The notes under the pieces are model-generated. The model was not told the DNA's origin. It did no database searches and saw only the letters and a program-made list of their open reading frames with translations. Positions 5,914-56,580 of a stretch of DNA of 64,000 nt are shown in pieces. A program made the position numbers and the translations under genes. Numbering within the stretch: position 1 is the stretch's first letter; each line of letters starts with the position of its first letter. The DNA comes from Marinomonas lutimaris (GTDB lineage Bacteria > Pseudomonadota > Gammaproteobacteria > Pseudomonadales > Marinomonadaceae): assembly GCF_019426345.1 (NCBI RefSeq), contig NZ_JAHLLW010000010.1, positions 1 to 64,000 of the forward strand, in the 5' to 3' direction.

Positions 5914-6228
5914 ATGGCAATACATTTTACAGGTCTATCAAACCAGAGCACGATCAACAAAAGCGAACGATCGCAAAAAGACGATGCAACAAGTAGTGCA
6001 ACGGAGAAACAAAGTACAGTTCAAAGTGGCGGCACGTTAGCAGAAGACACAGTCAAATTAAGCGGAACTGCGCAAACGCTACAAAGTCAGCAGTCTAAAA
6101 TTAACAACCTGCCTGATGTCGATATGGATAAAGTAGAACAAATTAAAAGCGCTATTGCAGCTGGCGAATACAAAATAGACACACAGAAGTTAGCGAATAA
6201 TATGGCTTCTATGGATTCGCTATTCTAG
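5914..6228 (+). CDS. flgM: Negative regulator of flagellin synthesis (anti-sigma-28 factor)
   Basis: Small protein that binds FliA and holds back late flagellar genes until the hook is finished and FlgM is exported. It has a polar, low-complexity N-terminal half (about residues 1-45) and the conserved C-terminal FlgM helices, seen here as VDMDKVEQIKSAIAAGEYKI followed by LANNMASMD. The length of 104 residues is normal. A GGGCGG lies some ten bases upstream of the ATG. It forms an operon with flgN (37-base gap) and is preceded by a FliA promoter, which closes the usual feedback loop. Confidence 0.93.
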   Translation: MAIHFTGLSNQSTINKSERSQKDDATSSATEKQSTVQSGGTLAEDTVKLSGTAQTLQSQQSKINNLPDVDMDKVEQIKSAIAAGEYKIDTQKLANNMASMDSLF

Positions 6229-49450: not shown

Positions 49451-50200
49451 TTAACCTGCTGTTTTTACAATCGCGATAAATTCTTTTGCATCAAGAGATG
49501 CACCACCAACAAGAGCACCATCTACATCAGGCATTTGAAACAAAGCCGAGCTGGTTGATGCCTTAACACTTCCACCATACAAAATCTGCACTTTTTGAGA
49601 TACAGATTCTGACGATTTTGCCAAAAAGGCTCTAATAGAACTATGAACTTCTTGAGCCTGCTCCGCACTTGCAGACAAACCAGTTCCTATTGCCCATACC
49701 GGCTCATAAGCAATAACCATCTGCTCAAATGACACAATACCAACAACATCAATCACTGCCTGAAGCTGCTGCTCGCATACTCCAAGCGTCTTGCCTGACT
49801 CTCGCTCAGCCAATGTTTCACCGATACATAACATTGGAGTCAGACCAGAATCTAAAACTGCCTTTACTTTAGAAGCAACAAGCTCATTGGTTTCACCATA
49901 AAGAGAACGCCGCTCTGAATGACCAAGCAATACATACTTAACCCCAAAGTCACCCAACATTGAAGTGGACACTTCACCTGTGTAGGCGCCTTTAACTTCT
50001 TGACTCACATTCTGCGCAGCTAAAACAATACTGCTGTCAGATATTAAATCATTAACTTGTGACAAATAGGGAAAAGATGGAGCAACAACCACTTCAGAGT
50101 TAGAATCTTCCATCTCAAGCAAGCCATTAATCAGCGAAACAATAGACTCTTTAGAGCCATTCATTTTCCAGTTACCAGCCACTATCTTTTGACGAATCAT
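49451..50200 (-). CDS. tpiA: Triosephosphate isomerase
   Basis: Interconverts dihydroxyacetone phosphate and glyceraldehyde 3-phosphate. The TIM barrel of 249 residues has the catalytic lysine in VAGNWKMNGSKE (about residue 12), histidine in LLGHSERRSLYGE (about residue 95), glutamate in AYEPVWAIGTG (about residue 165) and the phosphate loop ILYGGSVKAS. It stands between glmM and secG, as in pseudomonads; enterobacteria have it elsewhere. Confidence 0.98.
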   Translation of the reverse strand: MIRQKIVAGNWKMNGSKESIVSLINGLLEMEDSNSEVVVAPSFPYLSQVNDLISDSSIVLAAQNVSQEVKGAYTGEVSTSMLGDFGVKYVLLGHSERRSLYGETNELVASKVKAVLDSGLTPMLCIGETLAERESGKTLGVCEQQLQAVIDVVGIVSFEQMVIAYEPVWAIGTGLSASAEQAQEVHSSIRAFLAKSSESVSQKVQILYGGSVKASTSSALFQMPDVDGALVGGASLDAKEFIAIVKTAG

Positions 50201-55275: not shown

Positions 55276-55578
55276 ATGAGTCTTACAAACGCCCAAAAAA
55301 AGCAATATCGCCTAATCGGCCACGCACTTAATCCTGTGGTTATGATTGCGGGCAACGGTTTAACAGAAACCGTTCTCACTGAAATCGATCGTGCTCTTGA
55401 AGATCACGAGCTGATTAAAATACGCATCAGCATTACGGATCGCGAAGTTCGCACCGCACTGATTGAAGAAATTAATAAAATAATGAAGTCTGAAACCGTG
55501 CAAACCATTGGTAAAGTAGCACTTTTCTACCGCGCTGCTTTAAAACCAAACCCAAAATTGTCTAACTTACTTCGTTAA
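55276..55578 (+). CDS. yhbY: Ribosome assembly RNA-binding protein YhbY
   Basis: Small CRS1/YhbY-domain protein binding pre-50S particles. It has 100 residues with a KH-like fold: LTNAQKKQYRLIGHALNPVV, MIAGNGLTETVLTEIDRALE, the HELIKIRI stretch and IGKVALFYRAA. It is divergent from rlmE; this pairing is conserved across gammaproteobacteria. Confidence 0.95.
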   Translation: MSLTNAQKKQYRLIGHALNPVVMIAGNGLTETVLTEIDRALEDHELIKIRISITDREVRTALIEEINKIMKSETVQTIGKVALFYRAALKPNPKLSNLLR

Positions 55579-55584
55579 AAAAAC

Positions 55585-55626
55585 TTAGAGATAGTCTTTT
55601 TTGAGTAAAAAACAGACTATCTCTAA
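55585..55626 (+). terminator. Long hairpin after yhbY
   Basis: TTAGAGATAGTCT (55585-55597) pairs with AGACTATCTCTAA (55614-55626). An inner T-run/A-run can extend the stem around a GAGT loop. It is seven bases past the yhbY stop. There is no T-run after the 3' arm, so the mechanism is uncertain; its 3' end overlaps the start of the next promoter. Confidence 0.6.
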
Positions 55627-55650
55627 ACTCTTCAAAAATACGGCCGATAC
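55624..55650 (+). promoter_or_regulatory. Candidate FliA (sigma-28) promoter of the 280-residue gene
   Basis: TAAACTCT at 55624-55631, an 11-base spacer and GCCGATAC at 55643-55650. Against TAAAGTTT-N11-GCCGATAA this is 6 of 8 and 7 of 8 with exact spacing. The AAAGGAG ribosome binding site is at 55665-55671 and the ATG at 55679, so the leader would be about 20 bases. Confidence 0.6.
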
Positions 55651-55678
55651 CTTTGACAGCTAACAAAGGAGTCGTACC

Positions 55679-56521
55679 ATGCTATTTATAGAGGCACTCA
55701 ATAGAGCCAGCACTCAGCCGAATGAAAAAAAGTTGATTTCTAGAGCCAAATATCGCCCTATAATCAGCAATAAAGACTCTGTCGACTTAAGCTCTGCCGC
55801 ACACCAAGTAAAGGAAATACATTTAGATAGCCAAACCAAATCACCACTCACTGCATCAACAAGTGTTTTTGCCAACCTTATTGAGCACGTATTGAGCCAT
55901 CTTATAAACACCAATGCGCACTTACATTCCCCAGAAGAGCTTAATTTAGACACAAAAGACTGGAAACTCTTTCTACAAGTCCCACCAATGACAAAAGAGA
56001 AGGACAACAAATCAGTAGAATATGTTGCACCAGAAGTGTTGCAGCGGCCACCAGCCAAACAACTTATATTCCATATTCCAGTAAAGCCGTCATACGGCAT
56101 CCCTATAGAAATGACACTATTGCTGTCGCCTCATAACGGCTCACCTGAAGCACCAAGCATCTTCTACACTTTCCCTAAGGAAAACTGGTTGCCAGTATTG
56201 CGTACACCCTACCCACCAGAATTTCTTGAACAGCAAATCACTCATTATCACATACTGCTTGATCAAGATGGCGAACCAGACCAGCTGTCCTCCCTCTACA
56301 CGCACATTAATCAAAGCAGAGTGATGAGCGAAGACACATTTTCACCACAAACTTTCGGCCTACGAATTTGGAGAGCAAAGAACAACGCCTTAACACCTGT
56401 TGTTTTAGGGGATAGTCAGATTGGCTTATTATTTGTTGGCCATTTCAAACCGATTGAAGGCAATCCGATCAGCGAAGAAGAAAGAGCCCGGCAAGCGAGC
56501 AACCTTTATACAAAGGCCTAA
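55679..56521 (+). CDS. Uncharacterised protein, putative FliA regulon member
   Basis: I do not recognise this 280-residue protein. It has no signal peptide or membrane helix and is probably cytoplasmic. The first 60 residues are polar. A helix-rich part follows (SVFANLIEHVLSHLINTNAH), then beta-type stretches (KQLIFHIPVKP, IPIEMTLLLSPH) and a C-terminal domain with TFGLRIWRAKNN, SQIGLLFVGHF and a charged tail. A strong AAAGGAG lies seven bases before the ATG, and a terminator follows, so expression is likely. A FliA-like promoter upstream hints at a motility-linked role. Confidence 0.75.
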   Translation: MLFIEALNRASTQPNEKKLISRAKYRPIISNKDSVDLSSAAHQVKEIHLDSQTKSPLTASTSVFANLIEHVLSHLINTNAHLHSPEELNLDTKDWKLFLQVPPMTKEKDNKSVEYVAPEVLQRPPAKQLIFHIPVKPSYGIPIEMTLLLSPHNGSPEAPSIFYTFPKENWLPVLRTPYPPEFLEQQITHYHILLDQDGEPDQLSSLYTHINQSRVMSEDTFSPQTFGLRIWRAKNNALTPVVLGDSQIGLLFVGHFKPIEGNPISEEERARQASNLYTKA

Positions 56522-56536
56522 GTCGCATTTCATGCA

Positions 56537-56580
56537 ATAAAAAAACCCTTCATGCAATTCGCATGAAGGGTTTATTTTTT
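56537..56580. terminator. Bidirectional terminator between the unknown gene and erpA
   Basis: AAACCCTTCATGC (56543-56555) and GCATGAAGGGTTT (56561-56573) with a five-base loop, flanked by A-run and T-run. It separates converging genes. Confidence 0.92.

Follow-up and report, generated by a model that had tools for sequence, protein, structure and literature searches.

The self-processing module (SPM) of FrpC from Neisseria meningitidis is the closest described counterpart of the proteins considered here. According to the available text of its published description (PMC7078468), the module is unstructured without calcium and folds in its presence, cuts the Asp414–Pro415 bond through an anhydride, and then has its aspartate joined to a lysine; calcium is bound at about 150 µM, and the module is said to act only outside bacteria. 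As far as the accessible sources go, FrpC has 1829 residues, and FrpC-type SPM proteins are exported by type I secretion, not through the flagellum. The same sources place SPM chemistry (the Asp anhydride and the Asp–Lys bond) in RTX proteins of pathogens, describe its use as a protein-ligation tool, and leave the role of SPM-bearing RTX proteins largely open. A further point of comparison, by regulation, is FrhA of Vibrio cholerae, a cadherin-domain RTX adhesin that the available text places under the flagellar hierarchy (PMC3034196); the likeness lies in the flagellar regulation of an RTX-type secreted protein. In the accessible text of the literature found (including PMC7078468, PMC12538545, PMC7846742, PMC3034196 and PMC13377108), we encountered neither a link between the SPM and the flagellar sigma factor nor the 280-residue gene described below. 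Among the matches listed, a single paper contained both SPM and flagellar terms, and its flagellar passage, in the text available, concerns FrhA.

The locus analyzed here lies in a window of 64,000 nt, the whole stretch of Marinomonas lutimaris DNA under study. Its promoter is of the same type as those of the classical late genes flgM, flagellin and flgK in this genome and shares their N11 spacing; we take the FliA consensus to be a TAAA-type −35 box and a GCCGATAA-type −10 box separated by N11. Unlike these genes, the 280-residue gene stands outside any flagellar cluster, and its product is no known flagellar part.

A FliA-type promoter between yhbY and a 280-residue gene

The locus comprises the following features:

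55276–55578, plus strand: yhbY, the upstream neighbor, encoding a CRM-domain RNA-binding protein (Pfam CRS1_YhbY, E 9.4e-25)
55585–55626, plus strand: stable hairpin after yhbY and ahead of the promoter (fold −19.8 kcal/mol, z −6.2)
55624–55631, plus strand: −35 box TAAACTCT of the predicted FliA (sigma28) promoter (TAAA invariant in 31/31 close orthologs)
55643–55650, plus strand: −10 box GCCGATAC of the predicted FliA promoter, N11 from the −35 box
55665–55671, plus strand: ribosome-binding site AAAGGAG, from sequence
55679–56521, plus strand: ORF of the 280-residue protein
56543–56573, no strand assigned: bidirectional terminator-like hairpin between the 280-residue gene and a convergent iron-sulfur gene (erpA-like)

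The FliA-type boxes, the 28 nt separating the −10 box from the ATG (55679), the AAAGGAG and the 280-residue ORF had all been reported in the initial annotation, and each was confirmed at its position. The promoter had also been described as identical in spacing to that of flgM in the same window (TAAAGTTC-N11-GCCGACAA); this holds between the boxes and does not extend to the leader, which measures 28 nt here versus 36 nt for flgM. The convergent erpA-like neighbor matches Pfam Fe-S_biosyn.

The hairpin at 55585–55626 probably terminates yhbY transcription and shares its final three bases with the −35 box. On the plus strand it lacks a trailing T run; in several divergent species, by contrast, other hairpins occupy the site between yhbY and the promoter, some of them with T runs behind them. 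By eye, the stem is visible in most of 14 upstream sequences (the window and 13 named loci), and three loci (L054, L055 and L057) keep the promoter with no hairpin apparent at this site.

Within the window, TAAA-N15-GCCGATA occurs once versus 0.07 expected, and it is present in 7 of 100 shuffles; across the whole genome, TAAAN{14,16}GCCGATA occurs 21 times versus 8 for a reversed-pattern control (about 2.6-fold). The bare motif is barely beyond chance and not decisive alone, so a comparative test was needed. Promoters were scored with hand-set weights against the Escherichia coli sigma28 consensus. The promoter of the 280-residue gene scores 22, in the same range as flgM (21.5) and flgK (22.5), and the two flagellin genes of the genome score 21 and 19.5. 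Lower values were obtained for flgG, flgH, flgI and flgJ (14–16), flgL (15), flgE (16.5), flgB (17) and flgD (17.5); fliS (20) and fliD (18) score high though inside a cluster, so the score is no clean divider of flagellar genes. These flagellar genes were scored in 300-nt windows and named by eye, except for flgM in both respects and flagellin in naming. The genome encodes FliA (a single hit exceeding the FliA_WhiG cut-off, E 1.5e-82), as well as FlgM, above its model cut-off, and flagellin.

A second gene of this genome (L016, 1058–1465; contig C9 of G000, promoter at 49831–49856, minus strand) carries TAAA-N15-GCCGATA 35 nt before its ATG. Its 136-residue product matches PilZ (E 7e-5); on the strength of this match and the upstream site, it may be a late-flagellar c-di-GMP protein.

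Conservation across Marinomonas

Of 48 Marinomonas-family genomes, 47 have the 280-residue gene, in one case as a broken copy; the sole genome without it is 77% complete. Thirteen named Marinomonas records carry the gene, and yhbY lies upstream in the same orientation at all 59 Marinomonas loci checked. The broken copy, represented by L012 and L068, belongs to a Marinomonas pontica assembly (G026) and consists of two matches that overlap in different reading frames, the first of them interrupted by a stop.

Two ortholog sets were compiled. Set A1 consists of the window together with all named loci except the broken L012 (12 of 13). Set A2 has 46 rows, namely the window plus L035–L083 (49 loci) minus L036 (the window itself), L065 and L066 (duplicates of L072 and L081) and L068 (broken); L001–L013 are not part of it. 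The 46 distinct orthologs divide into 31 close and 15 divergent sequences, the latter 23–32% identical to the window protein.

Exact TAAA-N15-GCCGATA is present in 13 of 14 aligned upstream regions (the window and 13 named loci), the remaining one reading GTCGATA. An N11 FliA-type site scoring at least 18 precedes all 46 orthologs (31/31 close, 15/15 divergent) versus 7 of 247 control upstream regions (about 3%); at a score of at least 20, the counts are 31/31, 10/15 and 0/247, respectively. In the close set, TAAA and the first G and CGATA of the −10 box are invariant, the second base of that box is C in 27 sequences, and most spacer columns are variable. Several of the 15 divergent orthologs have a weaker −35 box (TCAA, TTAA). 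It had been stated beforehand that close relatives retaining the gene without the motif would speak against the promoter, and no such relative occurs among the orthologs at the threshold of at least 18.

Membership of the late flagellar regulon, the central suggestion of the initial annotation, is strongly supported by these comparisons: the site is kept genus-wide and before most of the long homologs described below, and FliA is encoded. Late-flagellar expression of the gene is accordingly best described as predicted and well supported. The accompanying idea of a link to ribosomes is not supported, since the adjacency to yhbY is genus-wide synteny, a stable hairpin separates the two genes, and the long homologs lie mostly in other contexts.

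Library and fold searches with the 280-residue protein

The protein matches no family in Pfam or PHROGs, and its one NCBIfam match (E 0.17) is far below the cut-off of that model. The earlier statement that it matches no family thus stands for these libraries and gives way at the level of profile comparison, which leads to the FrpC SPM. An AlphaFold model computed with 46 sequences reached a mean pLDDT of 74 and a pTM of 0.68 (pLDDT 39 with 13 close sequences); confidence is mostly good in the core, which starts near residue 44, and low at residues 105–119 and 275–280. Of the remote-homology and structure checks suggested for the protein, profiles reached the SPM family and the model gave no credible fold match (best E 0.65 with Foldseek, best VIA Z 2.6). 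The FrpC module 6sjw is not among the matches listed by Foldseek or VIA for this model (mean pLDDT 74), and its absence there is no evidence against SPM homology. Searching the PDB by sequence with the short-family profile found nothing, as did searching 280 genomes that lacked an earlier match, all outside the genus, with a profile of the close sequences.

A long family related to the FrpC self-processing module

The profile of the 46 short proteins found one protein outside the genus, in genome G340 (E 5.7e-5). A match in G317 with the same profile (E 0.017) was judged from its ORFs to be due to chance. With the 360-residue G340 protein as query, some match was obtained in 52 of 244 genomes of the order, the weak ones being partial and often inside much larger ORFs; a family-profile search returned a full-length member at E < 1e-80 in 30 of the 244. 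Further long members turned up in class and phylum samples. These proteins span 312–759 residues and have no specific library model, library scans giving scattered matches (EF-hand_6 in 2/30, EF-hand_1 in 2/30, single members elsewhere). The SPM-related domain also occurs within ORFs of 1000–4800 residues. The set of 54 long members used below (L087, L119–L157, L196, L199–L208 and L211–L213; 12 from Marinomonas) leaves out giant ORFs and partial matches such as L158–L162, one of which scored at least 18. A plasmid search with one long member returned 11 records, none covering 80% of the query.

Compared with the PDB, the long-family profile matches the FrpC SPM structures 6sjw (E 1.7e-17) and 6sjx (E 1e-16). 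The match spans profile positions 197–345 and begins at the proline of an Asp-Pro-Leu motif that is invariant in the family (54/54); the first EF-type loop pattern is likewise present in 54/54 members and the second in 49/54. By eye, the FrpC calcium sites are partly kept, and one of the paired tryptophans is missing. The long family retains the Asp-Pro site and two EF-hand loops of the FrpC SPM, as far as the available text describes the latter (PMC7078468), and differs from FrpC in that its genes are small and FliA-type, the carrier apparently being no RTX giant. Given the SPM match and the conserved Asp-Pro and EF loops, the long family looks like a family of free-standing, predicted calcium-triggered self-cleaving SPM proteins, mostly preceded by FliA-type promoters. 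Four medium-length relatives (L193, L194, L195 and L197; frames of 274–365 residues) also contain Asp-Pro-Leu, and FliA-like sites lie upstream of L194 (18.5) and L197 (20). One long member, L138 (the same gene as L094), ends in a C-terminal tail with dozens of Val-Asp-Asp repeats.

In the 150 nt before the start codon, 45 of the 54 long members have a site scoring at least 18, always with N11 spacing; 28 score at least 20, and 9 lack a site of at least 18. An earlier set, examined with 300-nt windows, comprised 45 loci (five partial), of which 35 scored at least 18. The nearest controls for the 150-nt windows are those of the 300-nt set, with a score of at least 18 in 3.1% (194 other ORFs) and 2.9% (2250 shuffles), and the 247 control regions mentioned above. 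Flagellin is encoded in all 30 genomes with a full-length long member versus 181 of 244 overall (hypergeometric P 6.5e-5, the 30 genomes representing 21 genera and not being independent). When two flagellar stretches of the M. lutimaris genome, holding part of the flagellar genes without the mot, che and fliE–flhB genes, were compared by tblastn with 28 long-member contexts, one weak match was obtained. Flagellar genes are hardly found near long members, so the promoter is not tied to a flagellar cluster as far as this comparison extends. The 28 contexts have hardly any neighbors in common, apart from four loci that share one neighborhood and a scattered ATPase group, the commonest shared neighbor (8 loci), whose longest member resembles a soluble ABC-F protein by eye.

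The Marinomonas protein as a degenerate relative

Profile–profile comparison (hhalign) of the short and long families gave a probability of 91.4 (E 9.3e-7) over 184 aligned columns. At E ≤0.01, the short-family HMM recovered 25 of the 54 long proteins and none of 1080 shuffled decoys. The reverse direction is weak: at the same threshold the long-family profile finds 5 of the 46 short proteins, and it gives E 1.1 for the window protein. In this framework, three segments of the short protein can be described:

55679–55807, plus strand: predicted disordered N-terminal segment, residues 1–43 (pLDDT <50)
56192–56212, plus strand: PVLRTPY, residues 172–178, in place of the scissile Asp-Pro-Leu of the long family, with no Asp-Pro
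56261–56275, plus strand: DQDGE, residues 195–199, remnant of the FDLDxDG loop of the family, from the alignment

Two short–long alignments differ in register by four residues, and neither places an Asp-Pro at the scissile site; in either register, none of the 46 short proteins (0/46) has one there. One of them (L069) contains Asp-Pro-Leu elsewhere, within the DxDGE remnant. The EF-hand insert that follows the FDLDxDG loop in long members is missing. Because the Marinomonas protein, compared with the FrpC SPM, has neither an aligned Asp-Pro nor the EF-hand insert, we do not file it as an SPM; judged by its sequence, it is a degenerate SPM relative.

A full-length long member is also present in 12 of the 15 genomes that have the divergent short form, so the two are separate genes. 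No full-length long member is present in any of the 32 genomes with the close short form (0/32), one of which (G045) has a partial long-family match within an 1847-residue frame; the long gene is absent wherever the close short form is found.

Proposed function and alternative explanations

We propose, with a probability of about 0.6, that the 280-residue gene forms its own FliA unit and that its product is a degenerate member, peculiar to Marinomonas, of a broad, FliA-controlled, SPM-based family that would work as follows. Transcription by FliA RNA polymerase would begin after completion of the hook and export of FlgM. The product would leave the cell unfolded, as we suppose because the N-terminus is signal-less (by hydropathy, neither short nor long members begin with a strongly hydrophobic stretch), folding in the family is predicted to depend on calcium and the start is predicted to be disordered. 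The likeliest route would be the flagellar type III exporter, to which we assign slightly less than even odds; the lack of a Sec signal and the disordered N-terminus of the short protein are permissive of such export, not specific to it. Once outside, the long members would fold in response to calcium and cleave themselves at Asp-Pro, with the N-terminal part becoming joined to a lysine. The short Marinomonas protein is unable to cut in this way; as a non-cleaving partner located on the flagellum or the cell surface, it would most likely have a binding or structural role. A more far-reaching version, which we offer tentatively, would apply to many flagellated Pseudomonadota. In it, FliA-controlled SPM proteins would pass unfolded through the flagellum, take up their fold on meeting calcium outside, undergo self-cleavage at Asp-Pro and become covalently attached, by the N-terminal segment, to lysines on the filament or cell surface; Marinomonas would have fixed a short version incapable of cleavage, which works alongside the long form in one branch and has taken its place in the other.

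It is very improbable that the FliA-like boxes are coincidental or part of the yhbY terminator, the gene being read from yhbY or from a sigma70 promoter. The −35 box does overlap the hairpin end, the bare motif reaches genome-wide only about 2.6 times its control, and one sigma70-like site (TTGACA, 10/12) lies at 55653–55680; however, N11 stays constant while the spacer sequence drifts, the boxes are kept where the upstream hairpin differs, the same promoter type precedes most long homologs, and the sigma70-like site overlaps the start codon, with shuffles yielding 2.8 such sites. We give scarcely any credence to the gene encoding a second, FlgM-like anti-sigma factor. That idea draws on the short N-terminal motif DSVDLSSAAHQV (55775–55810), which by eye resembles EDTVKLSGTAQTL of FlgM (5914–6228), a likeness that is probably superficial: the FlgM model finds the true flgM above its cut-off and omits the 280-residue protein even at E 10, and the protein has no Pfam match. 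Its identity as FlgM was rejected on the E 10 result.

FliA-controlled genes include cytoplasmic motor and chemotaxis genes, and the protein could be a cytoplasmic late regulator or chaperone of the flagellum that reuses an SPM-like fold. No signal peptide is seen, the calcium loops are gone in the short branch and the AlphaFold core is ordered, all of which fit this unlikely but still appreciable alternative. It sits poorly with the occurrence of the same domain in ORFs of 1000–4800 residues, a size usual for secreted RTX-type proteins, and with the FrpC SPM, which, according to the available text (PMC7078468), binds calcium at about 150 µM and is said to be active only extracellularly. Export by a different pathway (type I secretion, for example) or a role as a surface protein of swimming cells seems distinctly improbable. 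FrpC-type SPM proteins are type I substrates in the accessible literature, and the RTX adhesin FrhA offers, in the text available, a precedent for control by the flagellar hierarchy (PMC3034196), but the proteins described here are far smaller than the 1829-residue FrpC, and the longest member of the commonest neighboring ATPase group (8/28 loci) looks by eye like a soluble ABC-F protein.

If the reading of these proteins as FliA-controlled and SPM-based is true, an orphan late class would be added to the flagellar regulon, bringing many new modules to test. The Marinomonas gene itself, as an SPM relative that persists without the cutting site, raises the question of what role the fold has besides cutting. 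In motile environmental bacteria, SPM chemistry would gain a general role from a set of small, free-standing SPM proteins, if their control by the flagellar sigma factor is confirmed.
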